DNA of 64,000 nt from Platycnemis pennipes (taxonomy: Eukaryota > Arthropoda > Insecta > Odonata > Platycnemididae), in NCBI GenBank assembly GCA_933228895.1, contig OW121848.1, positions 155,326,688 to 155,390,687 of the forward strand, read 5' to 3'. Made by a program: the position numbers and the translations under genes. This document shows, in pieces, positions 1,175 to 54,298 of the stretch (the first letter of the stretch is position 1; each line of letters starts with the position of its first letter). The notes under the pieces were generated by a model that saw only the letters and a list, made by a program, of their open reading frames with translations, was not told the DNA's origin and did no database searches.

Positions 1175-1900
1175 ATATATAAAATTAAAGACCCGTATTT
1201 TTCCGTTCTTCGATCAGCCAATTGTTTCTTGAGTTATGGGCGGCGATTAAAAATTGTGTTTTCAACCATTTTTCGGAAAAGTGGGCGTGCGACAGACTCG
1301 TACGTCATCCGCTTCGTCCAATCGCAACTGTGACTGCTAAGATCCTTCGCCCAATCACAATGGGGGACACAGAGCTGATCCCGCCCATTGGGGTTAGACT
1401 CCTTGGACTCTTGGGTATTTCGAAAGACAATGCATACATTCGACTACATCGTAATTTGTGAAAAAGGATATAAACTTCAACACACATTTATTCATGTCAA
1501 AAAGTGTCTGGTGAATTTCGTTGTTAATTTATTTTCGGTTATTTACAGGATTCGCAGGAGTTTTGAACGCAGACCTCTCAACGCCACCTCCAGTTCTCCC
1601 GCCAAAACAGTCAAGCAGGGGAGGAGGTGGATGACGTAGAAGCTTTCGTGCAGCTCGTGAACGGGGGCGTCACCTGTTGCGTATTTTGATTCATGCGTCA
1701 ACGGCTCCAGGAAGAAGGTTAATTTTTTCAGTAAAATTCATTTTTCGTTTCTGTATAGCGATTATGTGTATAGACTATCTCTAGTTATAAGCTTAATTTT
1801 TTTATTCAAGTTCATTTTAAGTTTCGATCTAGCGATTTAATAATAAAATAATTTTAAATATATGAAATAACGATTTCAGTTCAGAGTAAACGCCCCAAAT
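1175..1900 (+). repeat. R500 dispersed repeat, copy 2 (diverged)
   Basis: It shares in order with copy 3 (2260-2795): CCCGTATTTTTCCGTT, TTCGGAAAAGTGGGCGTG, the CAATGGGGGACACAG block, a CAGTCAAG purine-rich block, GGGCGTCACCT, TTAATTTTTTC and AGAGTAAACGCCCC. No coding potential was recognised. It starts about 115 bp from exon 3 of the MOXD1-like gene. Confidence 0.6.
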
Positions 1901-2149
1901 TTGACTGTCGATGTAACTATATAATAAATAAATCAACTAAACATACCCGAAGGGTCAAGGTGAATTTTCACAGGTGAATATTTTTATTACTGATTAAAGA
2001 ACACAGCATCTATACATGGAAATGCCTAGAGAATAACAAGATTCACTCCAAAACGCGTGTCATCCCTGGTTTCTGTTAACTTTTAATGCCAACTACAATC
2101 GGTGGTGCAAGGAAACTCTTGATATTCATTTTATCCCATTGGGGTAAAG

Positions 2150-2250
2150 CACCGGCGATTCGCCGGTCAACCTTATTTTGCCTTAAGGTAAAGAGCCAGC
2201 GGTTTCTGTATAGCGAAAGAGATACAGAAAGAGCGATTCGCCGGTCACGT
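2150..2250 (+). repeat. Direct duplication of GCGATTCGCCGGTCA
   Basis: The motif GCGATTCGCCGGTCA occurs near 2155 and again near 2233, on either side of a segment that also contains a duplicated GATACAGAAAGAG-type block. It lies immediately before R500 copy 3, so it may be part of the 5' end of that repeat or a target-site scar. Confidence 0.45.
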
Positions 2251-2259
2251 GATGGAATG

Positions 2260-2795
2260 GGGTCGTTTACAATATTTTTTTATTGCCGAATATGATAGAG
2301 TTTGTAAAATAAAAAGACACGTATTTTTCCGTTTTTTGATCCGACAATTATTTCCCGAGTTATAAGCGGCGAAAAACTGATGTTTTTAACCCTTTCGGAA
2401 AAGTGGGCGTGGTGCAACCTCTGACGTATATCGACTTCGTCGAATCAGAACTGAGCCCGCGAAGCTACTTTGCCTTATCGCAATGGGGGGGGACACAGCT
2501 GACTCGGCCAATGGGAATGATTGCGACAGCATCTGTGCGAGCAGACCTTCCGAGAATCCCCCTCCACTCCCTTCCTCTCCCCTGAAAGCAGTCAAGGACG
2601 GGAGGAAAATTACGTCAATGTTATCACAGCAGCATTTTCGGTGGGCGTCACCTTTTGCTTATTTTAATTTTTGATTTATGAGTGAATGGTTGTGGTTAGA
2701 AGATTAATTTTTTCGCTAAAATTCTTTTTTCCTTTCCATCTAACGACCTCGCGTACAAAATTGCGATTTCGGTTCCGAGTAAACGCCCCCATACA
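2260..2795 (+). repeat. R500 dispersed repeat, copy 3
   Basis: This is the longest readable match to copies 1 and 2, same orientation. It ends near GTTCCGAGTAAACGCCCCC. The mixture of high local identity to copy 1 and low identity to copy 2 suggests independent insertions rather than a recent tandem array. Confidence 0.65.
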
Positions 2796-3865
2796 ATGTT
2801 CTAATGGTATTCTTTTTTCCCGATGATATGTACCACAAGTCTTTTTTTATTCAGTGCAAATAAGTTTTGAAACATTTATTGCATAATTAATTTCAATTTC
2901 CAAAAAAAATTCAAAAAGAAAATTTTCAGAATATTAAACAGAGTTTAAAGGGCAGAAAATCCATGGAAAATTAAGAGGCGAATTAGTTAATCTTGGAGAT
3001 TCATGAAGCATGGTGTTCAGCGCGGGATAACTTCATACTACATCAGTCCAGCCAATCAATGAGGTCTTCAAATTACTTTGGTGCTTTATAACAATACTGA
3101 ACAATGAATTGCCCACAAATAATCGAGGTATTTTTAATTAATCGACATAACTTTGACGAAAATACATTTCACGGTCGATTTAGGCGTTTAATTAGACCTT
3201 CATATGCCGCAGTGTGGTGGAGAGCGGTTTGTAAAACTGGATCAAGTAATATTAAAATTTCAATTATAGAATTCAATAAATAATTTGTACTTAAATTCAT
3301 ATTGATAATTGTAATTCAATAAATAATGATTAAAATTCATTAAAATAAAAAAATAATCCTGTCTATCATAATTGAAGATTGAATTCAAACGTTTTAACTA
3401 TTAATACTTTCTTTCAACGCTCTCGTTCCCATGTTGATAAAACCAAGAATCTAAAACTCTTCTGATTCATTTGTACTTTACGAGGCAAGGGAAGTATGTA
3501 CACTAGTTGAATTATGAATTGATTACATCTCAGTGAATATACAACCAGTTGTCATAAACAAATAAACGATTAACACGAAATATTGAGGCATTATTAATCC
3601 CTGATTTCCGCAACAATATGTTCGGTAGACCTTTTCAAGTTACATCTTGTAGGCCGTGGAATTCTTCGCCTGATGGACAAAGGTCTACTGTAAACATTGA
3701 TATGTTAAAGAAGCGGTTACAATCCTATCTTATACAATGTAAATAAAATAATCATGCATTGCAAAATGTAACGCTTATGCAATTTACAACTTATGGTTTC
3801 TTTGTGTTAAAATATTATTGTCGTTAAATTGGTTATTTTATATAAATTATTGTTCAACTATTGAC
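2796..3865. other. AT-rich intronic stretch, nothing recognised
   Basis: Many A/T runs, no long ORF, and no inverted or tandem repeat that stands out. Confidence 0.5.
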
Positions 3866-4014
3866 CCTTGTGTTAATCGTTTAGTCGATGTTTACACAAG
3901 AGCTCAATTGTAAAATTGTCACTAATGATACTGTGAGTTATTACGAATTGCTACCTGTAAATGTTCCAAGGGACATAATGTCCAAGAACAAATAAATATC
4001 TATCTCTCTACTTT
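3866..4014 (+). mobile_element. Probable LINE 3' end with AATAAA and TATC-type tail
   Basis: A segment ending TGTCCAAGAACAAATAAATATCTATCTCTC combines a polyadenylation signal with a short simple-sequence tail. This is the usual look of a 5'-truncated non-LTR retrotransposon 3' UTR. No coding remnant is attached, so the family cannot be named. Confidence 0.35.
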
Positions 4015-4375
4015 ATAGAAAGACGCGAAATGATACACAATGATGAAACGAGACCAGATCAGGCATAATAAAACTAAGACGGTAGAATATCGGTGCGAGG
4101 TAAAGAAGGTACAATGGTTGAATTATGAATGAATTTCATCTCAATGATTATCTTTCATCACACAGCACCAAGAGTTACCAGTACTAACAAGGAGACATCG
4201 CGAGACAGATTATCGGGATCGAAATGACACAATTATTTTCTGAAACTATGGAGGGAATACAGAGAAAAAGGTCATGGCTTTCTTCCATACAGGTCGGGGT
4301 TCACGAATAAAAACGCAACTATTGGATTTACCTTCCTATAAATCCTTTTTAGGGCAAACGTTCATTAACAATAGC

Positions 4376-4440
4376 CGGGGTCGAGTGGGTAAAGGCGCTG
4401 ATGAAGTTCCACCATTAAATGGTTCGAGTCCCAATTGGGG
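4376..4440 (+). repeat. tRNA-like fragment (SINE head candidate)
   Basis: It has an A-box-like GAGTGGGTAAAGGCGC and a B-box GGTTCGAGTCC at tRNA spacing. The flanking stems do not form a good cloverleaf, so I treat it as a tRNA-derived SINE head or tRNA pseudogene, not a functional tRNA. Confidence 0.35.
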
Positions 4441-4712
4441 CAAAATATTTCCTTTCGAATATTTTGGGGAATCACTGTTACCTACATGGCCAATCCCATA
4501 CATTTGCGGCATTATCAACAATATTTTTTTTTTCAAACTATTTGCTGGATTTTCGATCATCCCCCTTGGGAGACTTTCGAAGCACATTTCGGGATTCTAT
4601 GTGTGCCCGAAAAGAGGTTTATATACCGACAGGCCTAATATCTTTCGATTTTGAAAAATACAAGGATACTTCCGTGAATAGGATGGACTTTGATTGGTCG
4701 TGGGATTTGACT

Positions 4713-4756
4713 GTGACACGACCGTGACGCGACCGTGACGTGACCGTGACACGACC
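4713..4756 (+). repeat. 11-bp tandem repeat, four units
   Basis: There are four consecutive 11-mers of the form GTGACRYGACC, differing only at the two central positions. The array sits about 95 bp downstream of the exon 2 donor in intron 2 of the MOXD1-like gene. Confidence 0.85.
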
Positions 4757-4850
4757 AGTCTCCCGGTGTCTCCTTATAAGCGCAACTCCATTTACTTCGC
4801 CGAGGTCACCACAGTGCACGTAGGAGAGGTCACCACGCCCAAGAACTCAC

Positions 4851-5087
4851 GGAGAGCGTGACCCTGCCCTTCCAGTCACTCCAGAGGACGCAGTAGTCGG
4901 CAGGGGCGGGCTCCCCTCGGTCGGAGAATCCGACTGCGAACCAAGATGTGGGCTCCAGGGCCGGCACGTGAACCTCCGCGAGCACCTTGCCCCCGGCGGG
5001 ATACTCCACGCGCCAGAACAAGGTGGGGGTGGCGGCAGGGGTGGCTGTCATGCCGCCGTGCACTCCCAGGGCCGGCCCCAGTGGAAC
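4851..5087 (-). CDS. MOXD1: MOXD1-like monooxygenase, exon 2 (main DOMON exon)
   Basis: This 237-bp exon encodes 79 residues with phase-0 ends. The acceptor is a pyrimidine-rich tract ending CCACAG before GTT at 5087, and the donor is TCC|GTGAGT at 4850. The product contains LFWRVEYPAGGKV, then SWFAVGFSDRGE and ADYCVLWSDWKG. These are the core DOMON motifs of the DBH/TBH/MOXD1 family: a Trp-rich first strand, the GFSDRGE turn and the A-D-x-C-V-L-W strand. GC content and codon use are much higher than in the surrounding intron. It follows exon 1 (signal peptide, ending SPVFQ) and precedes exon 3 (starting DTWADEDG) without any frame problem. DOMON domains in this family are extracellular or lumenal and precede the catalytic copper domains. 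Confidence 0.9.
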
Positions 5088-5689
5088 CTGTGGTGCGGGA
5101 AGAGTAAAAACAAGAGGCGGCCATTACAGTGACGCGTCATCGTAGGAGACATCGTCCTTAGAGGCACTGACTGTTCATTGGAGAGGACCGGAAAGTAAGG
5201 GTCAGTCGCTTCGTTAAGAACTCTCGGGTAAGGATGAACATGCACTATTTTTATGACTCTTCGAGTGAGAAGTGTATTACCCAATTGACCACTTGCGATA
5301 TTTTTGCTGAGGAATTCAGTTGTGTTAGACAGATATTACTCTTTAAAAATTGTACCTTTTCGACAGATTAAGAAAAACGATGTCATCGCATGGAGTCACA
5401 GCACGGTATCACTATGTGTGCTGTTTATCTATTGTACGTGGGGTTTGAGTTGTTTAATGAATACTTGCGCAAAACGTAGATATTAATCTCATTTGTTTAT
5501 TGCAATAAAGTAATGTATTTCGTTATTTATATAATAGGTGACGAGCAAATCGTCCATAAATAATATCATGCCTGCATAGTACCCTGTTTGTTTTCACTCC
5601 CGGGATCTCCGCTACGACAAAGCAATCGCTGTTTTTTTCTAAAAGGATGCCACCGTAAGGGAGTCAGCCAAAGGCTAATTGTCGGATTC

Positions 5690-6010
5690 TGTATTTTAAG
5701 TCCGTTATCGGTCATTTTTTCGACCAACGGACGGCTAAAAACCTCAAAAACATATATTTAATTCGTTTTGTTCTAAAAATAAATGTCAATTTCCATAGCA
5801 ACATGGGACCTATACCGTGCAGTGACGTCATAAGGCTTTTCAAGTCACGTGACTTCCGTAAATTTTCGGCAACATTTTAATACAATTTAATAATCTTTGT
5901 GATTGGCAGAGAAAATTTTGGCTTATATAACTGAATTAGTGAGAAATTTTCGCATTAAGTACATCTTCAACACGCGAGAAACAAATTCCATGCATATTCC
6001 CTATTGGGTA
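5690..6010 (+). repeat. R320 dispersed repeat, left copy
   Basis: It is present again, inverted and diverged, at 63680-64000. Shared blocks include CCGTGCAGTGACGTCA, GTCACGTGACTTCCG (diverged), GAAATTTTCGCATTAAGTACATC and GAGAAACAAATTCCATGCATATTCCC. No coding capacity was recognised. The copy at the right end is cut by the window edge, so the true length may be longer. Confidence 0.75.
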
Positions 6011-6198
6011 GAGATAGGAATTTTCAAAGGATTGCAGGAATGTTGGAAAAGAAAATCGACGCCAACAGATTAGTCTAGCTTTCGCGAAAGGCGCACGGGG
6101 CCAACGATTTAATATCCCTCATGAAAAGGGCTGCAGGGGGTTCTCCTCCATGTTGGTTCGACACTTGGCGAATTCAGTGTCAGGTTTCCATCGATCCT

Positions 6199-6250
6199 GC
6201 TGGAGTCTTCAGGCCAGAAGCCACGTCACTTCTGGCCTGAAGACGCCAGC
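6199..6250. repeat. 22-bp-arm hairpin
   Basis: Arms 6199-6220 and 6229-6250 are reverse complements with one mismatch, separated by an 8-nt loop (CCACGTCA). A transcript could fold into a strong stem. Its role is unknown; it may be part of a foldback element or a small-RNA-like hairpin. Confidence 0.7.
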
Positions 6251-6309
6251 AGCATTGCTGGTCCGGCCACAGACGAACAAACGCGGAGGAACGTCTGAAA
6301 GCCCTTTTA

Positions 6310-6530
6310 ATCAATGATAAACCCCACGGAAACCTCAGATCTAATTTTGTTTAACCTTTTATTCCGTCCAACTGGAAAGAGTCCTAGAATCAATTATAGT
6401 GATTGGCACACAGATGGATCGTGTAGGGAAGGACAGTTACATTTCTGGAAAATCTCTTTCCCTGCCTGGATTCGAACACGGGCTCTCAGGATGGCATTCT
6501 AGTCACCACGCCCAGCCGTTCCCTAAACCA
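6310..6530 (-). repeat. tRNA-derived SINE-like segment, minus strand
   Basis: On the minus strand it reads GGCTGGGCGTGGTGACTAGA (A-box-like), then GTGTTCGAATCCAGGC (B box) at tRNA spacing. A non-tRNA body follows, with TGGAAAATCTC and a GGAATAAAAGG end. This resembles SINE-1 of this window in layout but is diverged. Confidence 0.45.
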
Positions 6531-6762
6531 CAGGTTTGCGGTCTTGACTGCATGTGGAGCATAAGTATTGTTAGTTTTTTGGGAAGTGAAACTTGTGTTG
6601 CGAAGAACGTTGTGAATTGGTATATTGGAACTATGGAAAAAAATAGGTGAAATATATGGTTTCTCATCGCTGGAATTCATTACGGTTTTGTTTCACACTT
6701 TCTAGCAAACTGCACACATGGGATCAATCAAGTGAAAACGGTGAGCTCTTACGGCTAACAGT

Positions 6763-6989
6763 ATCTATTGAAAAGAAATGTCTCCAAGCCGTAATGTGTG
6801 TCCTTTCGTATGTGGTATAAAGGGGGGAAAAAAAGGAACTTTTAGGAAGTGAACAACAGTACCTCAATGTTTCTTCTGGCTTGAGAAGGTCTTCCGGTCA
6901 GCGACCAGCTTCCAGGAGTCTGAAGAAGATCTTGTTAAAAAACACAACACTTCTAGAATTTCCACACTGGACACTGATGCACTTCCACA
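6763..6989. repeat. PLE-1 left terminal repeat
   Basis: 227 bp, the reverse complement of 8704-8930; I found no mismatch by eye, including the GGGGGGAAAAAAAGG run. The near-identity implies recent insertion or concerted correction of the two arms. Confidence 0.85.
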
Positions 6990-7034
6990 TGGTTAGTTTA
7001 CCAGCTTTCGAGTCTCCAGTTTCAATGCCCACAT

Positions 7035-8309
7035 TCGATTAAGAACAACACTGAGTTCATTGAAAGAACAAAAAATCACGTATTTTCTCAAGGCGAAATT
7101 ATGGTGTCATTTGATGTAACCAACCTTTTTCCAAGTGTACCTGTGGACATAGCTATCCAAGCATTAGAGAACTGGCTAAAATCACTTTCTCTGAATTCAC
7201 AAACAATAGATGAGTACATCCGCTTAACCAATTTAGTGATGAGTCAGAATTATTTTAAATGCCAAGGAAAATTTTTCAAATAAGAATTTGGAACAACTAT
7301 GGGTAACCCCCTTTCACCCTTCTTGGCAAATATTTTTATGACCCATTTTGAAAACCTCTTCAAAGAAAAATTTAGCTATTTTCCATCTGTTTATTTGCGC
7401 TATGTTGATGATATCTTCGCAGTTTTTGATACAACGAAATACAATCTCGACGATTTCGTTAACAACCTAAACAGTCTATTTCCCACCATAGGATTCACCT
7501 ATGAAAAAGAAAAAGAAAACATCCTTCCTTTTCTTGACCTTTCACTCAAGAGGTTGGGAAGTAAAATAACATATGACATATACCGTAAGCCAACACAAAC
7601 CATCAACTACACACACAATCATTCATTTGACCACCCGAACCACAAGTCAGCTGTCTTCCATTCCCTCGTACATAGATTAAATAACGTCCCTCTTGACAGA
7701 TCTGCTTATAACAAAGAATTGAATTACATCAAAAACGTTGCTAGACAGAATGGATTCCATGAATCACTAATAAACAACATAATTAAGAAGCACAAATTCA
7801 AGCGTCTAATCAATAGCTCCACTACACACAAAAAAGACTGCACAATGAAATATATAAAGTTACCCTTTTACCCGCAATTAACTAAGGGTATAGATAGAGT
7901 ATTCAAAACTATGAACACTAAAATATCCTACACCAATAATAATAAGCTTAAACACCTCTTGGGCAACACCAAAGATTAAATTCCCACGACTGAAAAATCT
8001 GGTATCTATAGAATCAATTGCGGCAACTGCCAAGCTTCCTATATCGGCCAAACACGTCGAGCTCTATCAACTAGGTACAAAGAACATTTGGCTCACTATA
8101 GACACAACAATCCCGACAAATCGAGCATAGCACAACATTTAATCAAGACGGAACACCAAATTACACAAGAAAATTTAAGTTTGATGAAACATTGCAGCAA
8201 TAACTTGTTAGACGCTTATGAGACCATTTTCATATCAACAAATAAAGGACAACTTTTGAACAGCGATTCAGGACCCATCACCCATTCCCCTTTGTTCACA
8301 CTTCTTTAG
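7035..8309 (+). pseudogene. Penelope-type reverse transcriptase with GIY-YIG domain, two stops
   Basis: One reading frame runs through the whole segment, broken only by TAA at 7281-7283 and TAA at 7977-7979. The first part has VSFDVTNLFPSVP, an RT finger/palm motif carrying a catalytic Asp. The second (from 7299) has GNPLSPFLANIF and the YVDD active-site box, followed by LPFLDLSL and the IYRKPT motif that is characteristic of Penelope RTs. After the second stop the frame gives SGIYRINCGNCQASYIGQTRR, the GIY-YIG nuclease signature with the downstream Arg, and ends with a conserved AYE helix (about 8215-8230). The protein would copy RNA into DNA primed at nicks made by the endonuclease. The N-terminus is absent, so this copy is not autonomous. 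Confidence 0.9.
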
Positions 8310-11602: not shown

Positions 11603-12606
11603 TTTTACGTTTATCAAAAGAAGAATGTACTTGCAGCTGGAAATTCAAGCATAGATGTAAAGAAACAAATCATCGGAACGTACATCTGGAGCCAGGCACG
11701 TAGCCATGGCTTCTGGTGCTTCAGCCCCCCCCCCCCCCCCCCTCCGAAATTTTTTCCCAATAATTTTGTTGTTCTGATTTTAGCAGTGAACTCTACTAGT
11801 GAGAAGAGATGTGTATGGGCACTGTAAAAGTAAATTCCAAGCGCTGAAAACTAAGGGAAGAGATTTGTAACATGTAGGCACCGAATGGGCAAGGCTGATT
11901 TGTTTCAAGTGACGCAAGACTTAGCCCCCATCCCGAAGCAAATTTCTGGCTACGTGCCTGTCTGGAGCGTGTATCTTTACAGCAGTGGACATGGACGATG
12001 ACATCGGAGAAGTCAACACTGGAAGCATTCGAAATGTGGTACGGTAGAAGAATGATGAACATAAAATGGACCGACCGAGAGAAAAATGAAGTTTTAAGAA
12101 GAGAGGGCATTCTATCAAAAGAAGAATCTACTTACAGTTGGAAATACAAGCTTGGAAGTAAGGAAGCAATTCATCAAAACGTATATATGAAGCATGTTTC
12201 TTTACGGCAGTGAGGCATGGACGATAACGGCATCGGAGAAGTCAACACTGGAAGCATTCGAAATGTGGTGCTATAGAAGAATGATGAAGATAAAATGGAC
12301 CGACCGAGTGAGTAACGAGGAAATTCTAAGAATAGTGGGAGAAAACAGAAGTCTGCTGAAACTAAAGAGAAGTTGGGAAAACTTGATCGGCCACATCTTG
12401 AGACACAATGGCCTGATGAAGACAATCGTCGAGGGAAAAGTGAACGGGAAGATTGGGAAAGGCCGGCCTCGTATGAGTTACATGGAACAGGTTGTGAAGG
12501 ATGTAAAAAAGAGGAATTATGTTAATATGAAGAGGTTGGCCGATAGAAGAATCGAGTGGATGGCTGCGTCAAACTAATGCTGGGATTGTTGACCGATGAT
12601 GATGGT
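11603..12606 (+). mobile_element. LINE-B copy, 5'-truncated, with internal duplication
   Basis: The segment encodes the C-terminal part of an endonuclease-reverse transcriptase ORF2. Motifs include LEAFEMWCYRRMMKIKWTD, NLIGHILRHNGLMKTIVEGK and GKGRPRMSYMEQVVKDV. It ends GGATTGTTGACCGATGATGATGG, the GAT-repeat tail of this family. A hAT MITE interrupts it at 11693-11960. The stretch with KSTLEAFEMWYGRRMMNIKWTD is present twice (about 11995-12100 and 12225-12305), so the copy contains a tandem duplication of roughly 225 bp. The fragment is not functional. Confidence 0.85.
11693..11960. mobile_element. hAT-type MITE (CAGGCACGTAGCCA ends), copy 1
   Basis: The termini CAGGCACGTAGCCA and TGGCTACGTGCCTG are perfect inverted repeats. 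They are flanked by the 8-bp duplication TCTGGAGC at 11685-11692 and 11961-11968. The element lies inside LINE-B; removing it with one duplication restores the LINE-B sequence. It contains an 18-base C run. The 8-bp duplication and CAG end indicate a hAT-family non-autonomous element. Confidence 0.9.
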
Positions 12607-17429: not shown

Positions 17430-18735
17430 GTTGAAGATTCGATTAGAGATTTTGAGAATGGTAATGGCCGGATATCACTCAAAAATTAATAAGAAGAAAA
17501 CTCAAGCATTTGTATGCAGTAGGAGAGGAAAGACCAAAAACAATGGTACTCTAGATAAACAAAAGCTTGAAGAGGAGGTAGAGTATTGTTATCTATGTTG
17601 CCAAGTGACCAGCCATGTACAAAGCTAGAAATAAACAGCCAGAAGAATGTCCCAGATGAAGACGGTGGCAAAACATCTCATTCGCGGTGTAAACAAAAAA
17701 AAACTTTAATTCGCGACGTAAACAACCCGAGAATGGGAGAAACATAGTGAGAAGTGGTCACTAAGGATTCAGTCGGGAAGAAACAAACAAGAAGAGGAAG
17801 GCGAGGGACGCGGACGGAGGAGAACAATCAAGAAAAGTGGAGACGGGGGACGCGGAAGTACACCGAAGAAAGAAGGAGGAAGAAGTGTTGTTTGGTTATT
17901 TAGGGGAGGCGACCGACAGCTGAGGTCATTTGCGCCATCTAGGAATTTTTGGGTAATTGGGTAATGGTAGATAGGAGTTTTCAGGGAACGGATGAAGGGT
18001 GGAGAGAAACCCGGCGTCGGCATTAGCCTACTTTTAACAAAAGGCGGCAAGGGGACCACGGCTTAAGGTCCCATCCGACGGAAGAAGTACTCCCTGCCCT
18101 CCACTAGGCACTCAAGTGGGGACCGGTTTTCCACAGAAAAATCCGCCACTGCCGGGAATCGAAACCGGTCCCTCGGGATGGGAAGCCAGTACTCTAGCCA
18201 CCACACCAACCCGATCCCCAGGAAGAAGTGTATTTTCAAGACTGTGACCCGGAGCAGAGGTTACAACGGAATTCTACCGAAAGAAGAATTGACTTATAGC
18301 TTGAAATACAAGCGAGGATGTAACGAAACAACTCATTAGAACATACATGCATCTGCAGCATGCTTCTTTATCTCAGTGAAGCATGGAAGATACAAGCAGC
18401 AGAGACGTCAAGGCTGGAATCATTTGAAATGTGGTGCTAGAGAAGAATGACGGAGATAAAATGGATCGACCAATTGACTAAAGAAGATATCTTAAGAAGA
18501 GTGAGATAAAAGAGAAGTATTCTGAAAAACTTTGAAGAGAAGACGGAAAAATCTACTCGGCCATACCTTGATGCATGGTGAAGATAATCATCGAGGTACA
18601 AATGAACCGGAATCATGAAAAAAGCAGGCCTAGCATGAGATATACGAAGCAGGTAGTGGAGGACGCGAAAGAGATGAATTGAGCGAATATGATGAGGTCA
18701 GCCGAGAGGAGTAGAATCGATTGGAGTGCGGTGTC
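17430..18735 (+). mobile_element. LINE-B copy, heavily decayed, split by SINE-1
   Basis: The left part encodes MAGYHSKINKKKTQAFVCS and KQKLEEEVEYCYL, matching the copy at 31.3 kb. After SINE-1 copy 3 the right part continues with FYRKKN-like, CYLSEAWK-like and FEMWC-like codons, interrupted by many stops, to about 18735. The region 17680-17870 contains purine-rich sequence not seen in other copies. Confidence 0.7.
17889..18219 (-). repeat. SINE-1 copy 3, inserted in LINE-B
   Basis: A perfect 12-bp duplication AGGAAGAAGTGT lies at 17877-17888 and 18220-18231. The body is as in copy 1, with B box diverged (GGTTTCGATTCC). Removal with one duplication joins the two LINE-B halves, so the SINE is younger than that LINE insertion. 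Confidence 0.9.
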
Positions 18736-30748: not shown

Positions 30749-32112
30749 GGGTCATATTCGGAATCTCAACTACAGTCTCGCTTCCACTGCTTGCGTCATG
30801 AAATCACTACTCCGATTCAAATTGGAGTAGAGATTCACCCTGCAAAGTTGTTATCACCTCATGGCGCCACGCTGTATACCGCTTTGAACCATATCGAGGA
30901 GACTTTATGTACTGTAAAATAGAAATTTGTACTGTATTACGTACTGTTTATCGTAAAAAAGAGATTTTATGACGCAAGCAGTATAAGTGAGACTGTAGTT
31001 GATATTCTGAAGGTGGCCCATCCATGTTCATAATGTCAACCCTTTCTTCAGCATCTCAGTGAGACTGAGTTGCGATTCTGAATACGTCCAGTTGAATCTC
31101 AACTACACTCTCACCTTTACTGCTTACATCATAAAATCCGTAATACGAAATCAACAAGTTTCGCAGATTCTCCTCGATGTGATTCAGAGTGGTATTCAGT
31201 TTGGCGCTATGAGGTAATACCAACTTTGTAGGGTGAATCTGCACTCCAATTTCACTTGGAGTAGTGATTTCATACATAGCTCTCATAGCAGAGACAGAGA
31301 AGGAGCTGAATAAGATGCTAACAACCACGGAAAGGACAATGGCAAGTTATCGGCTGAAGATCAATAAGAAGAAAACTAAGATATTGGTGTGCATCAAGGA
31401 AGAAGAGGCCAAAACCAATGTCAAACTAGGAAAACAAAAACTTGAAGAGGTGAAGGAGTTCTGTTGCCGGGGAAGCAGAGTAACCAACGACGGACGAAGC
31501 AAGAAAGAAATAGTTAGTAGAATAGCCCAGGCAAAGAGGGCATTCTATCAAAAGAAGAATCTAATTACAGCAGGAAATAAAAGCATGGAAGTTAGGAAAC
31601 AGTTCATCAGAACATACATCTGGAGCATGTTTCTTACGGCAGTGAATCATGGACGATGACAGCAGCGGAGAAGAAAAGGGTAGACGCATTTGAAATGTGG
31701 TGCTACAGAAGAATACTGAAGATTAAATGCATCGACCGAGTTAGTAACGCGGAAGTCCTAACAAGAGTAGGAAAAAAGATAAATCTGCTGAAAACTCTAA
31801 AAAGAAGAAGAGACAACTTAATCGGCCATATCTTGAGACATGATGGCCTGATGAAGACTATCGTCGAGGTAAAAATGAACGGGAAGATTGGAAAAGGCAT
31901 GCCTCATATGAGATACATGGAACAGGTTGTGAAGGATGTAAAAGAGAAGAATTACGTCACATTGTAAAGGTTGGCCGATAGAAGAATCGAGTGGAAAGCT
32001 GCCTCAAACCAATCCTAGGATTGTTGACCAATGATGATGATGATGATGTTGATAGTGATTTCAAGACGCAAGCAGTGGAAGCGAGACTGCAGTTGAGATT
32101 CAGAGCATGGCC
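30749..32112. mobile_element. FB-1 foldback element, interrupted by LINE-B
   Basis: The outer ends GGTCATATTCGGAATCTCAAC and the reverse of GTTGAGATTCAGAGCATGGCC match. The arms (about 30755-30940 versus 31100-31272 plus 32053-32112) run through ACAGTCTCGCTTCCACTGC, AAATTGGAGT, GATTCACCCT and CATCGAGGAGA. Without the 780-bp LINE-B insertion and one duplication the element is about 570 bp. No coding sequence of its own was found. A degraded relative lies at 10.2-10.7 kb. Confidence 0.8.
31273..32052 (+). mobile_element. LINE-B 3' copy with exact target duplication
   Basis: The 11-bp duplication TAGTGATTTCA lies at 31262-31272 and 32053-32063. The insert encodes YRLKINKKKTKILVC, KQKLEEVKEFCCRGSRVTN, QAKRAFYQKKNLI and RKQFIRTYIWSMFL. 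After one frameshift near 31.64 kb it continues with KRVDAFEMWCYRRILKIKC, NLIGHILRHDGLMKTIV and YMEQVVKDVKEKNYV. It ends TTGACCAATGATGATGATGATGATGTTGA, a GAT-repeat tail. This copy defines the 3' terminus of the family. The clade is uncertain; it resembles arthropod endonuclease-RT (RTE/jockey-like) proteins. Confidence 0.92.
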
Positions 32113-32189
32113 CTTAGAATCAATGATGCTCCGACCACTAAGGCCATCAGGAGACACCTGACCCTGGCCAAAGGTATATATATATATAT

Positions 32190-33130
32190 GGGTCATTCCA
32201 CCCAAGTTCGACCAGATATTTGGCAAAATTGACCCTTGGGGTAATCGATTTCGACCAAATTTGGCAGATCGTCTTCATTTGATTACAAAACAAAAACCCC
32301 AAAGCCATTTTGTAATACATGCAACGGTTTACGAGATATTACAATGTTGTAAAACTAGAATTTTACAAAAGCGTCTTCGCGTTTGACGGCATATCTCCGG
32401 AAATAAGGAAGATAAAAATACATGCAATGACTCATTTTGAAGGTCTTGAATTGAAAAAGATAATTATTAGATTCTTTTATAAAATTTAAACAATTAAATA
32501 AAGTTTATAACAAATTCAATTTTTCAAATCGATTTTTGACGATGTAGTTATGCCTTCGATTTTCCTCATTTTTTTATATGTTGTAGATACAACCCTTCTC
32601 TACAAGCTTAAAAAATTTGGTAGGGGTAATATTTCATTTAAGAAAGAAAAAAAAAATTGAGTGAAGGCGTAACGCTGGCCTCCCGCCGCGGCGGCGTCCG
32701 GCTCTCGCGCCGAACTTTCAGTAGTCGGTTCTCCAGATCTCATCAGCGCGCTTCCTTTGCTATCCTCTTTTCGCCAATTTTAACTGCATACCGACCCCTT
32801 GATTCTCTTTACCCTTGTCATTCGCCATTTGCTTCCCACTGAAGTGACCGCCGCTTTAGAATCCAGGATTAGCGACAACATGCTTAACAGCGGGGGCGAC
32901 CATGGGCCCACCAGCGGCCGTGCTCGGAGGACAATAGACAAACCTCGCTCCGTCTTAGACCTCCAATGCTACTTTCCTCTCTTCCCCTATCCCATTTTCC
33001 TCGCATACCCTTTATTATGTTCTGAGAAACATCTTTGTAAGTATTGCTCCCAGTAGCCGTCGCCCACCCTCACACATTCACATATTAACCCCTGGTAAAA
33101 AACAACGGTAAAGGCGGGTAGCCACCCATG
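32190..33130. repeat. Left long terminal inverted repeat of the 5.18-kb transposon
   Basis: The outer half is AT-rich with TTTTACAAAAGCGTCTTCGC. The inner half has a GC-rich island (CCCGCCGCGGCGGCGTCC) and ends at GGGTAGCCACCCATG. The same 85-residue and 61-residue shadow ORFs occur in both repeats and are a consequence of duplication, not genes. Confidence 0.92.
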
Positions 33131-33790
33131 CTTGCCATTCAGCGGAATATTTGTTTCCTTTAAGAAACGATTGCCTTTCTGGACTCTTTTGCCCTCAGTC
33201 ATCACCACGTTTTCCCCTCTCTCCTGAAGTATTGAACTGTAAACTCTATTACTATAATGCATGAAAAACGTTTCCTCACGTGAGTGGGAACAAACGTGTA
33301 TTTTCTCAATTTTCTGAAACAATAGTTTATGGTTGGCATGAAGTTGAACTTTTTCAAATCAACATTTCTTTATTTCAAATTAATTTTATAAATCTCTATA
33401 TTTTTTTTTTAAATGTCACATTAAAATTAAATTTTGTATCTAAATAACCATAGTTACTGATTTTTCCTTTAAATTAAATTAAATTTTAATTGAAATTGAA
33501 AGTAAGCATACATTATTTAAGTTAGAGTATTTAGCTTGTATGCATATCGTTCCATCATTTTTCCCTTTAGTTATTTAAAGCAAGTGCTTAGAAAACAATT
33601 GCAGGATTAATTAGAGCTGCTTAAATGGCCGGAAACTCATGTATCCTTTTGTTTTCTCTGATGAAACATTGCTGTGCTGGCTGTTTAAATCACCGAGGGT
33701 GATTTCTTCTTAGCTGCAGACCTAAAAGATGAAAGTTAGATTTAGCCATGGAATTAATATTGCCTAGTCAATTCCGGGTGCGAAATGTAC
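33131..33790. other. AT-rich 3' flank of the transposase gene
   Basis: A/T runs and no ORF. It probably holds the transcript end of the minus-strand gene, with AATAAA-like hexamers available on the minus strand. No second gene is visible. Confidence 0.45.
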
Positions 33791-36289
33791 TCACCTTCTC
33801 ACTGGACCTTGTAAAACATCTGTACTCTCCTCCAAACACACCAAATCAGCATCAGAGAAGTGGAAAGTAATTCCCTCGGATGCTTGGGAGAGACTTTTCA
33901 ATAATAAGTCTTTTCTGGATTGTGGAATAGCCGCATGGAAAGATCGTATACCTTCCACAGCAGGTGCCTCCCGGAATCTTCTCACCAGCTTCTTCTTTTC
34001 CTCGTTCACTTGCTCGTTGGTTACAAACTCAAAGTCCATCCCTTTCACGTTTGATTTTGCCCATTTGTATAGCTCCTCAGGAGTCTGTATGTGTTCACCA
34101 TACGGGCGCTGCAGACTGGCACGTGTTGCTAATCGTTTCAGCGTCCCTCCTAGTCCGTCACTCGGGCCCTTTCCGTGCGATGTTGCATAGAAATGCCATT
34201 CAGCATCAACTCCGAAATCCTCTTGGTGATGTAATAGATTCAGCATGCTGTAGCGGTTCTTATATTGAGCCACAGCACCGTCGGAAAAGTAAATTATTTT
34301 ACTTAGATATTGATCCCTTCTTCGAAGAAAAGTTATCAATTTCCCTTGAAACGTATAGAATGCACTCACGTTATGTTCCATACAGTCTGAAATAATAACC
34401 AAACTGAAAGGTGTGACTTCATCGCTGGTATTTCTGCTGTAACATGCAAATGGATGTACTGTAGCCTGATCGTTACACCAATGGACCCCTTGCACTGCAT
34501 CTTGGTGAAGAAATGAAAAATTCTCGGAAAAATCGGCCACAACGACAACTTCTCGCAATTTCAGATTGTCTCTGACTTTCAAATAAAATGCAGTTTGCAT
34601 GCGAGCGATGTAGTCATGCCTTCTTACTTTGGTGGTATTCTCAGCGAAAGCCTCACAAAAACTATCTACGTCCTTGACCTGTGTAGTTAATGTAAAACGA
34701 TTTTCATGAGTCCATTGCTTGAAACGAACTTCATCCATACAGTTTTCCCTGAAGTACTCTGAAATAATTGTTGTCATACTGTCTGTACTCCCACATTTTC
34801 TGACGACGTCATCACCGTTTTCGTCCTCTTCTCGCGGTAGTGTATCTGAGCACTCACCCATAACGCACATTTCTGACGGAGGGCGACAGAGTGAGAATTT
34901 CAGGCAATCCCGATAGGTTTTGAACAATTTTTCTCCGTTATCCGATTTTATTTGCTCTAATCCAGCCCCGAGGTATTGCAACTTGTAATTCTGGTGGATC
35001 ATGCAGACGCATGTGGTGTGAGTGCCAGGTTTACCAGCCAACACGCACTCAGGAGGCCTCAAAACCGCAAATTTGGAGAAACCAATCTTTAAATAAGGAT
35101 TTTTCTCTTTAAAAGCTTCATAGGCTTCCCTCAAATTACAAAGAATTAACCTTTTCTGCTTAACTACACGCAAATTTCCCTCCTTCACACTCTTACACTC
35201 TTTTTTACCCGCCATTTCTCTACTAATATCTGGTTCACGGTAGAACTCTATCACCTTCAGTTTAGTATCATTTGAGAGGTATTTGCTTCGTCTCGCGTTC
35301 GCAGAACATAGAATTCCTTGCTCATATACGTATTTTTTCATCTTTTTAACCAAATACGTCGATGTGTGAAACTCCTGCTTTATCTTTGAAACACTCCAAG
35401 ATTTAGGTAGGACAGATAAGATTAAAATTTTGTCACTAATTTTCGTAGCGTTGAGGAACTTATTCTTCAGCTGCATAATCATTTCCTTGCCAGCTTGGTG
35501 GAAGTGATCTTCTTGTTCAGGGATATCTTCTTGAATGTCCACCATCCCACCAGTAACCCTTTGAAGAGATAATCTCAAAGCAGAGGTGGCTACTTTTAAT
35601 TTCTTCGCCGGATATTTTCTTGATCTGTGCAATTTTTTCGTTGTTATAGGTGTTTGATCCAGGGATTTTAAGGTCTCGTTCAGTTTTCCCAAGCGAATTT
35701 CTTTTCCTGGAGTGTACTGACTTCCATTTGTTTCATCAGTCCCGCTATCTTTCATGGAACTAACTGATGACTCTGACTGAGAACCTTGAGATTTAATGGT
35801 GAATGTAGCACTGGTTGAAGGTCCTGCTGCACCATAAACCCTACTCAGATAATCGTCATTTGTCGCTTGCTCAGACTGACTTTCTGGCTCATGTTGAGAG
35901 CAACCTGAACTGTTCTTTTCGGCAACATTTTCTGGCTTGATCAATTTTTTCACACCCACTTTACATTGAACACAGAGTTTTCTACCCTCTATTACAACAG
36001 GCACTAAGTCATGATAGGAATCTTGTAACTCCCTTGTAATTGTCCACAATTTAATCGAGCGAATGTTTCTGTGCAAATTCAAGGGATTGCAGCACTGCTT
36101 TTGACGAACCTCGTAGAACAGTAAATAATCCTTACAATGACGGTTGCACACACTGAGGACAGCATCCACACCACTTCTCAATTTGATTAACTCAATTTCA
36201 CGAGTAGAATAGCTGCGAAAACTTCTCAATACTGTATCACTCGAACATTTCTCGTTTAACGCATCACCAACGGAACACTTCATAATCAA
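33791..36289 (-). CDS. Putative DDD/E-type transposase, intact, 832 aa
   Basis: A single uninterrupted frame from ATG at 36289. Residues about 40-115 are Cys/His-rich (C48, H51, C52, C66, C67, H73, C106, C109), which suggests a zinc-binding DNA-recognition region. Residues 120-260 are Ser/Gln-rich and then Lys/Arg-rich, probably disordered. A further Cys-rich segment is at 416-480 (CVLAGKPGTHTTCVCMIHQN). The C-terminal third has three conserved-looking acidic blocks: VVVVADFSENFSF (D586), IIYFSDGAVAQYKNR (D670) and YATSHGKGPSDGLGG (H705, D711). Their order and predicted strand context fit an RNase-H-fold nuclease. I recognise the FSDG-x-x-x-QYKN and SHGKG-x-x-DG-x-GG wording from many uncharacterised animal proteins, but not a named superfamily with certainty; Sola-like is a possibility. 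It would bind the long inverted repeats and cut and paste the element. Confidence 0.8.
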   Translation of the reverse strand: MIMKCSVGDALNEKCSSDTVLRSFRSYSTREIELIKLRSGVDAVLSVCNRHCKDYLLFYEVRQKQCCNPLNLHRNIRSIKLWTITRELQDSYHDLVPVVIEGRKLCVQCKVGVKKLIKPENVAEKNSSGCSQHEPESQSEQATNDDYLSRVYGAAGPSTSATFTIKSQGSQSESSVSSMKDSGTDETNGSQYTPGKEIRLGKLNETLKSLDQTPITTKKLHRSRKYPAKKLKVATSALRLSLQRVTGGMVDIQEDIPEQEDHFHQAGKEMIMQLKNKFLNATKISDKILILSVLPKSWSVSKIKQEFHTSTYLVKKMKKYVYEQGILCSANARRSKYLSNDTKLKVIEFYREPDISREMAGKKECKSVKEGNLRVVKQKRLILCNLREAYEAFKEKNPYLKIGFSKFAVLRPPECVLAGKPGTHTTCVCMIHQNYKLQYLGAGLEQIKSDNGEKLFKTYRDCLKFSLCRPPSEMCVMGECSDTLPREEDENGDDVVRKCGSTDSMTTIISEYFRENCMDEVRFKQWTHENRFTLTTQVKDVDSFCEAFAENTTKVRRHDYIARMQTAFYLKVRDNLKLREVVVVADFSENFSFLHQDAVQGVHWCNDQATVHPFACYSRNTSDEVTPFSLVIISDCMEHNVSAFYTFQGKLITFLRRRDQYLSKIIYFSDGAVAQYKNRYSMLNLLHHQEDFGVDAEWHFYATSHGKGPSDGLGGTLKRLATRASLQRPYGEHIQTPEELYKWAKSNVKGMDFEFVTNEQVNEEKKKLVRRFREAPAVEGIRSFHAAIPQSRKDLLLKSLSQASEGITFHFSDADLVCLEESTDVLQGPVRR

Positions 36290-36440
36290 CGGCTACAGTC
36301 CGAAGAACATTTACTCGCACTGAAACGCGCGCACTTGAAAAGCGAGACCAAGGAGTGTTTTGTAATGTAACTGACGGAGGACAGGCGACAACTGACGAAT
36401 TGCTTGCAAATGAGATAGGTTGTGAGGGAAAAAACATTTT
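36290..36440 (-). promoter_or_regulatory. Short 5' flank of the transposase gene
   Basis: Only 151 bp separate the start codon from the right inverted repeat, so the promoter probably lies partly within that repeat. The segment has no obvious TATA box next to the start. Confidence 0.4.
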
Positions 36441-37371
36441 CATGGGTGGCTACCCGTATTTACCGTTGTTTTTTACCAGGGGTTAATATGTGAATGTGTG
36501 AGGGTGGGCGACGGCTACTGGGAGCAATACTTACAAAGATGTTTCTCAGAACATAATAAAGGGTATGCGAGGAAAATGGGATAGGGGAAGAGAGGAAAGT
36601 AGCATTGGAGGTCTAAGACGGAGCGAGGTTTGTCTATTGTCCTCCGAGCACGGCCGCTGGTGGGCCCATGGTCGCCCCCGCTGTTAAGCATGTTGTCGCT
36701 AATCCTGGATTCTAAAGCGGCGGTCACTTCAGTGGGAAGCAAATGGCGAATGACAAGGGTAAAGAGAATCAAGGGGTCGGTATGCAGTTAAAATTGGCGA
36801 AAAGAGGATAGCAAAGGAAGCGCGCTGATGAGATCTGGAGAACCGACTACTGAAAGTTCGGCGCGAGAGCCGGACGCCGCCGCGGCGGGAGGCCAGCGTT
36901 ACGCCTTCACTCAATTTTTTTTTTCTTTCTTAAATGAAATATTACCCCTACCAAATTTTTTAAGCTTGTAGAGAAGGGTTGTATCTACAACATATAAAAA
37001 AATGAGGAAAATCGAAGGCATAGCTACATCGTCAAAAATCGATTTGAAAAATTGAATTTGTTATAAACTTTATTTAATTGTTTAAATTTTATAAAAGAAT
37101 CTAATAATTATCTTTTTCAATTCAAGACCTTCAAAATGAGTCATTGCATGTATTTTTATCTTCCTTATTTCCGGAGATATGCCGTCAAACGCGAAGACGC
37201 TTTTGTAAAATTCTAGTTTTACAACATTGTAATATCTCGTAAACCGTTGCATGTATTACAAAATGGCTTTGGGGTTTTTGTTTTGTAATCAAATGAAGAC
37301 GATCTGCCAAATTTGGTCGAAATCGATTACCCCAAGGGCAATCACCTGGTCGAATTTGGGTGGAATGACCC
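36441..37371. repeat. Right long terminal inverted repeat of the 5.18-kb transposon
   Basis: Reverse complement of 32190-33130. It is 10 bp shorter, because of a deletion near the tip (CAATCACCTGG versus the longer left version). It also carries the upstream region of the transposase gene. Confidence 0.92.
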
Positions 37372-37381
37372 ATATATATTA

Positions 37382-53654: not shown

Positions 53655-54298
53655 GGTAAATTAGTAGATTATAGGAGTAGGAGATTATGCAGTGGGAGAA
53701 AATAAGCCAAAACCAAAGTTAAATTAGGAAAATAAAAACTTGAAGAGGCGAGGGAGTTCTGTTACCTGGGAATCCGAGTAATCAATATTGGACGAAGCAA
53801 GAAATAAATAGTCAGTAGAATAGCCTAGGATTATCTACTTACAGTTGTAAATGCAAGCGTGAGTGTGCGGAAAGGTTTCATTAGAACCTAAATTTGGAGC
53901 ATGCTACATGGACGATAGCAGCAGCGGAGAAGTCAAGACTGAAAGCATTCGAAATGTGGTGCCACAGAAGAAAGATGAAGTTTAAATGGATCAACCGAGT
54001 AAGTAACGAGGTCTAAGAAGAGTGGGAGAAAAGAAAAGTCTTCTGAATACCCTAAGCAGAAGACGGGACAGCTTAATCGGCCATAATATGAAAGACGATG
54101 CCCTGATGAAGACATTCGTCGAGCAAAAAGTGAACGGGAAAACCGAAAAAGGCAGGCCTTGTATGAAATGTATGGAACAGGTTGTGAAGGATGTGAAAGA
54201 GAAGATTTATGTCTATGTGAACAGGTTGGCCGATAGAAAAATCAAGTGAAGGGCTGCGTCAACCCAATCCTAGGTTGGTGACCCATGATGATGATGAT
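53655..54298 (+). mobile_element. LINE-B copy, decayed
   Basis: Codons for KTKVKLGK-like, KLEEAREFCYLGIRVIN, KAFEMWCHRRKMKFKWINR, RRRDSLIGHNMKDDALMKT and GRPCMKCMEQVVKDV, with stops and indels. The 3' end is AATCCTAGGTTGGTGACCCATGATGATGATGAT. Confidence 0.85.

Follow-up and report, generated by a model that had tools for sequence, protein, structure and literature searches.

Sola2 elements, as portrayed in the part of PMC3627910 that deals with them, are DNA transposons with 4-bp AT-rich target duplications of the form AWWT (ATAT, AAAT and ATTT); the examples given there have inverted repeats of 12-21 bp, and the transposase of one Sola2 family comprises 888 aa. Passages of two further reports give a mean length of 5445 bp for bivalve Sola1 (PMC10294476) and describe Sola2 elements as abundant in the wasp Cotesia congregata (PMC7822920). 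Among other superfamilies, Kolobok and piggyBac are assigned TTAA-specific duplications, and a group comprising hAT, MuDR, P, Kolobok and Dada a C/DxxH motif between the second D and the last acid, in the section of PMC9587614 on these groups. The element described here occupies positions 32190-37371 of a 64,000-nt stretch of the Platycnemis pennipes genome (contig OW121848.1; hereafter the window). At 5182 bp it is close to the bivalve Sola1 mean, and its target duplication is likewise 4 bp long and AT-rich, whereas its inverted repeats exceed 930 bp; it is likened to Sola2 by description, not by protein. It is almost certainly an autonomous cut-and-paste DNA transposon, and displays features of the DDE/D class: inverted repeats and a fixed-length duplication (34 elements, 29 with identical 4-bp flanks), and an RNase H-like core in a structure model.

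The two arms, of 941 and 931 bp, are identical in 926 of 942 aligned columns (98.2% identity by blastn), which agrees with the nearly identical inverted ends of about 935 bp described in the original prediction, as do the tips, GGGTCATTCCACCC, and the AT-repeat flanks on both sides. Their inner ~896 nt are three substitutions apart, and the outer ~45 bp hold two substitutions plus about 10 nt of gaps. The 64 kb contain no second copy of the element. The arm search of the animal's own 1.79-Gb assembly (88 contigs) scored 40 matches among 2312 candidates, and the exact 26-base tip pattern has 70 matches in this genome, against 0 for the control. Thirty-three pairs can be made from these 70 tips; three tips lack a partner (C3:62387223, C10:25438249 and C11:73447093), and the last belongs to L043, an element whose second tip is mutated. 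With L043 included, the two-ended elements number 34. Identical 4-bp flanks, found for 29 of them, fix the length of the duplication, for which a genome-wide search of copies had been proposed. By base composition, such flanks are expected by chance at ~0.7% per site, a value inflated by AT repeats. The duplication is ATAT in 11 cases, and the remaining 18 are spread over 17 words, TTAA occurring once; an AT microsatellite string is present at 10 of the 29 sites. When 23 joined flank pairs were compared with the window and the retrieved loci, one, from L040, matched an empty site: a paralogous repeat in L078 aligns through the junction (76%, 575 nt) and carries one TAGT, the L040 insertion being flanked by two, which confirms the element ends.

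Insertion prefers a two-fold symmetric site, about ATGY-N4-RYAT. At the 19 sites devoid of an AT string, the third base to the right of the duplication is A in 19 (P 9e-10), the third base to the left is T in 15 (P 1e-4), and the second base to the left is G in 11 (P 6e-5), with C in 7 and T in 9 at the mirror position of this G; the P values are relative to flank composition and uncorrected for 24 positions. T and A occupy both mirror positions in 24 of the 29 sites. AT repeats supply the T and A of this pattern, a probable reason for the AT flanks of the window copy. Among the two-ended elements, six are 5.9-9.7 kb long rather than 5.2 kb, perhaps through later insertions or other cargo (Table 1). 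L045 holds a truncated left piece (301-1657) ~240 bp from a full copy (1896-7076); the two share their orientation, and each follows an AT repeat.

The family has spread recently and is probably active at present. Pairwise divergence among 18 copies ranges from 0.08 to 0.41% (median 0.25%), in a sample fetched as the best arm matches, where older copies may be under-represented. The youth of the family follows from this divergence and not from the near-identity of the arms, which had been taken as a sign of youth but by itself is none, since the arms appear to convert each other (see below). Of 23 copies, 21 have an open exon 1 of the transposase gene, with 830 codons in 20 and 829 in one. The initial proposal, a DNA transposon that is young, may be active and encodes a DDD transposase, is confirmed in its main lines by the genome copies, the 4-bp duplications, the empty site, the open frames and the RNase H-like model. 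If we assume instead a recently silenced burst, the family would have multiplied lately and now be immobile. This is possible, though the less probable course: L042 (stop at codon 507) and L050 (deleted, without a start) are broken and the six elements of 5.9-9.7 kb may carry later insertions, but most frames are open and divergence goes down to 0.08%.

The transposase ORF (33791-36289, minus strand) is the longest of the three window ORFs of at least 180 aa, the runner-up having 226 aa. The three aspartates of the original prediction, D586, D670 and D711, are all present and, like H705, identical in 25 of 25 aligned proteins (window protein included). In a wider set, counting only sequences with letters at these positions, D586 is D in 22 of 23 (one relative has N), and each of D670, H705 and D711 is unchanged in all 21. 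The histidine before the third Asp, singled out as unusual, is thus present, but it is a trait of the family rather than a peculiarity of this copy, because it is kept throughout both sets; we presume that it occupies the place of the flexible loop in the active site of integrases. Residues H424, C427, C429, H432, C468, C475, C480 and C499 are also identical across the 25 proteins. The catalytic domain, for which structure modelling had been proposed, is predicted to be RNase H-like: the model matches integrase cores and Mos1, with D586, D670 and D711 at the expected elements. The catalytic cores of retroviral integrases (ASV, RSV, HIV, PFV) are also RNase H-like, with the first Asp apparently at the same place. 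However, identity to the best row is about 9%, the N- and C-terminal parts differ, the third acid is Asp here and Glu in retroviral integrases, and the present element is a DNA transposon, not a retrovirus. Compared with the Mos1 mariner transposase, the protein is far longer and has extra Cys-rich regions, and the duplication is 4 bp rather than the TA of mariner. Foldseek analysis against a viral library reports the unnamed protein A0A1C9LVY4 (E 4e-5), all other hits being above 0.001.

A search with a 563-residue part of the protein retrieved 471 relatives at E <= 0.001 among 5951 candidates, and 120 of these relatives were listed. Among the matches listed, the best is 54% identical over 98% of the query part, and the named sources include thrips, beetle, wasp, hagfish, sea spider and rotifer, together with P0117 from EukProt, which from its label we take to be a sponge protein. 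In a tree of 121 proteins, the window protein pairs with P0001 (support 0.933), and the pair falls in a clade of 13 members (0.988) with proteins from thrips, beetle and wasp among them. Two members of this clade, Thrips palmi LOC117648108 and Microctonus PV328_012113, named just hypothetical or uncharacterised, are of the same family: as proteins, they share 49-50% identity with the query across 95-97% of its 563 residues. A Trp-containing domain, WWLACVL...LHPxGPS...GR, forms the C-terminus of many relatives (P0015, P0020, P0041, P0087 and others; 76 of 121 by a rough pattern); at this place, proteins of the clade that includes the window protein carry a short tail. This domain was sought by eye in the reverse frames of 32900-33830, and none was seen. 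Perhaps a C-terminal module has been swapped within the transposase family.

Regarding its superfamily, the element most likely belongs to Sola, given that its duplication is 4 bp long, AT-rich and not TTAA-specific. Kolobok and piggyBac were rejected, one TTAA among 29 duplications not amounting to TTAA specificity, as was the hAT, MuDR, P, Kolobok and Dada group, judged by motif alone, no [CD]xxH being found between D670 and D711. Ginger, Chapaev, Academ, Kolobok and piggyBac make duplications near 4 bp, but have other tips, other lengths or a strict TTAA. A superfamily other than Sola, or one still unnamed, seems a rather unlikely home. In its favour, the window protein has no match in Pfam (E <= 1), NCBIfam (E <= 0.1) or the PDB sequences (E <= 1), Pfam analysis of 25 family members returns scattered weak matches only, Foldseek gives no clear match, a literature search for the word SHGKG yielded no transposon paper by title, and no Sola protein sequence entered the comparison. 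This is countered by the tips, lengths or strict TTAA of the superfamilies just listed, by the fit of the duplications with Sola2, as far as the Sola2 part of PMC3627910 describes them, and by the length, near the Sola1 mean given in the bivalve passage of PMC10294476. With still less likelihood, the family might stand for an unnamed animal DDD superfamily defined by DFSEN ... SDG..QYKN ... SHGKGxxDGxGGTxKR and palindromic ATGY-N4-RYAT sites, whose kilobase arms would be homogenised by ongoing within-element conversion, with selection keeping the tips distinct. Microctonus, the host of one relative, is presumably a braconid, a mere lead beside the Sola2 elements of Cotesia congregata. Among the matches listed, a literature search for the tip word gave none on transposons by title, and the name Cc8L18.2-like (P0126) led to no paper.

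Outside animal genomes, none of 28 candidate stretches in viral contigs was confirmed as a relative, and tblastn returned no match in phages. The 27 viral contigs with a 15-base tip word were dismissed as chance, none having the 11-base tip in both orientations. One of 121 stretches in prokaryote genome contigs, L001 (30% identity), is a relative; this distant sequence (1381-2694), with SHGKGIIDGLGGTVKR, lies on a contig labelled as a bacterial metagenome-assembled genome and is probably eukaryotic DNA in a bacterial bin.

The arms were analysed in 21 copies, L050 and L052 being excluded for arm deletions. Six inner sites tell left arms from right arms, and the resulting 126 site-by-copy states are unlike in 84 cases, both left-type in 30 and both right-type in 12. 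Shared states occur in 15 of the 21 copies, often as contiguous runs: 22 adjacent shared pairs are observed, whereas column shuffles, which do not keep the relatedness of the copies, average 7.5 and reach 22 in 0 of 5000 trials. In the window copy, both arms show the left-type state at each of the six inner sites. The two innermost sites are unlike in 21 of 21 copies, and every one of the 34 elements has one L-type and one R-type tip. This patchy sharing is best read as gene conversion between the arms of one copy, and arm identity would therefore be a poor clock. The tips may be kept distinct by selection, or by a tip indel that may hinder conversion. Recombination between copies, inherited older mosaics or assembly error could also produce such patches, for the copies are nearly identical and could exchange, just six inner sites are diagnostic, some patches are single-site, and two patterns are each found in two copies. 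These sources are nevertheless improbable in view of the contiguous same-state patches on both arms of one copy, in both directions, and of the two innermost sites that still differ. A repeat search showed no direct repeats in the left arm.

The transposase gene had been described as an uninterrupted 832-codon frame. The long frame is there, but it starts at TTG, its first ATG being residue 3 and leaving 830 codons, and its stop TGA lies inside a consensus splice donor (AGAAG/GTGAGT), so that a second exon is likely. At 73 bases past the donor, after CTAAC and a T-rich stretch to TTTTAG, the predicted exon 2 reads (R)SAAKKKSPSVI and stops. The 73-nt intron probably adds this basic tail, giving an 841-aa protein. 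The stop context, GAAGGTGAGT, is the same in 21 of 23 copies, and the exact donor and acceptor strings are present in 15 of the 16 copies having the ATG word (exception, L041). The predicted spliced frame comprises 841 aa in 13 copies and 840 in L046, L042 stopping earlier. That the plain stop at 33791 is the true C-terminus, the donor-like GTGAGT being coincidental, is unlikely. In its favour, 8 of 163 retrieved relatives have an [STK]R ending, for several of them at the corresponding point, which could mark a real C-terminus (P0003, P0004, P0005 and P0018 end in KSR, QTR, KTR and ETR), and P0001 and P0007 continue beyond this point with tails of no clearly basic character. Against this stand a donor, a branch-like sequence and an acceptor spaced as in a short intron, the frame open after predicted splicing, and the likeness of the basic tail to those of P0002, P0011 and P0012, which continue past the same point. 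Lastly, an assembly inversion artefact, named at the outset as a possible refutation, is very unlikely, because 34 places with differing surroundings show this structure, and at 29 of them the 4-bp flanks on the two sides are identical.

In the cut-and-paste mechanism proposed, the predicted 841-aa spliced transposase (exon 1, 830 codons, plus the basic tail) would be the element's enzyme and would bind both ends via its N-terminal Cys/His and helix-turn-helix-like regions. It would cut at the GGGTCATTCCACCC tips and join the ends 4 bp apart at the two-fold symmetric ATGY-N4-RYAT target, catalysis being presumably carried out by D586, D670 and D711 on the predicted RNase H-like core. Unlike tips (L plus R) may be needed for mobility, and the arms may be converted, for instance through repair that uses the opposite arm as its template. 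Several points weigh against this picture. Foldseek analysis of either model against the PDB reports no match with E <0.001, only weak, mixed RNase H-like and unrelated hits. Five of the 34 elements are devoid of an identical 4-bp flank (L042 and C5_0.57 in AT repeats; L043, AT-rich; L050, internally deleted; L062, one mismatch). Variants relative to the majority in 16 copies are nonsynonymous in 16 cases and synonymous in 10 (neutral ratio 2.9:1, P about 0.11, not significant), so that selection on the frame within the family is not demonstrated. Moreover, the Sola filing goes by duplication length and exclusion of others, and the overall support consists of genomic DNA and a predicted fold.

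Table 1. Features of the element (window positions) and longer two-ended elements of the family (contig positions)
Feature	Position	Strand	Remark
Left target duplication copy, ATAT, 4 bp	32186..32189	.	Position ambiguous within AT repeat; length 4 set by other copies
Left terminal inverted repeat, 941 bp	32190..33130	+	L-type tip (G at base 17)
Predicted exon 2, basic tail (R)SAAKKKSPSVI then stop	33685..33721	-	Spliced protein 841 aa
Predicted 73-nt intron	33722..33794	-	Donor AG/GTGAGT, branch-like CTAAC, acceptor TTTTAG; holds in-frame TGA
Transposase exon 1	33795..36283	-	ATG at 36283
Catalytic codons, exon 1 (832-codon numbering)	D586 34534-34532; D670 34282-34280; D711 34159-34157; H705 34177-34175	-	
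Right terminal inverted repeat, 931 bp	36441..37371	-	R-type tip (A at base 17, about 10 nt shorter near tip)
Right target duplication copy, ATAT, 4 bp	37372..37375	.	
Longer two-ended elements (G000)	C2:61834776-61843310; C3:13592335-13599747; C3:114188087-114197757		
Longer two-ended elements (G000), continued	C3:118060661-118067070; C4:78215342-78221214; C10:20117068-20125515		

Elsewhere in the window, the left flank of the element contains a repeat (31264-31967), which we take to be non-LTR (long terminal repeat) retrotransposon-like and which recurs many times; its three longest window matches are at 12102-12604, 18268-18680 and 53706-54298 (73-84% identity). The 226-aa ORF (7299-7979, plus strand), with a YVDD motif, resembles part of a reverse transcriptase, presumably Penelope-like.

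Taken as a new family, probably active, of a most likely already named superfamily, the element makes a strong candidate for a transposon that is active in nature, in a transposon family without a solved relative by PDB sequence search and with none clear by Foldseek. Its ends, gene and target motif are defined well enough for a mobilisation assay. Conversion between its long inverted repeats, seemingly caught in progress, would show that arm identity is unfit for dating such elements.
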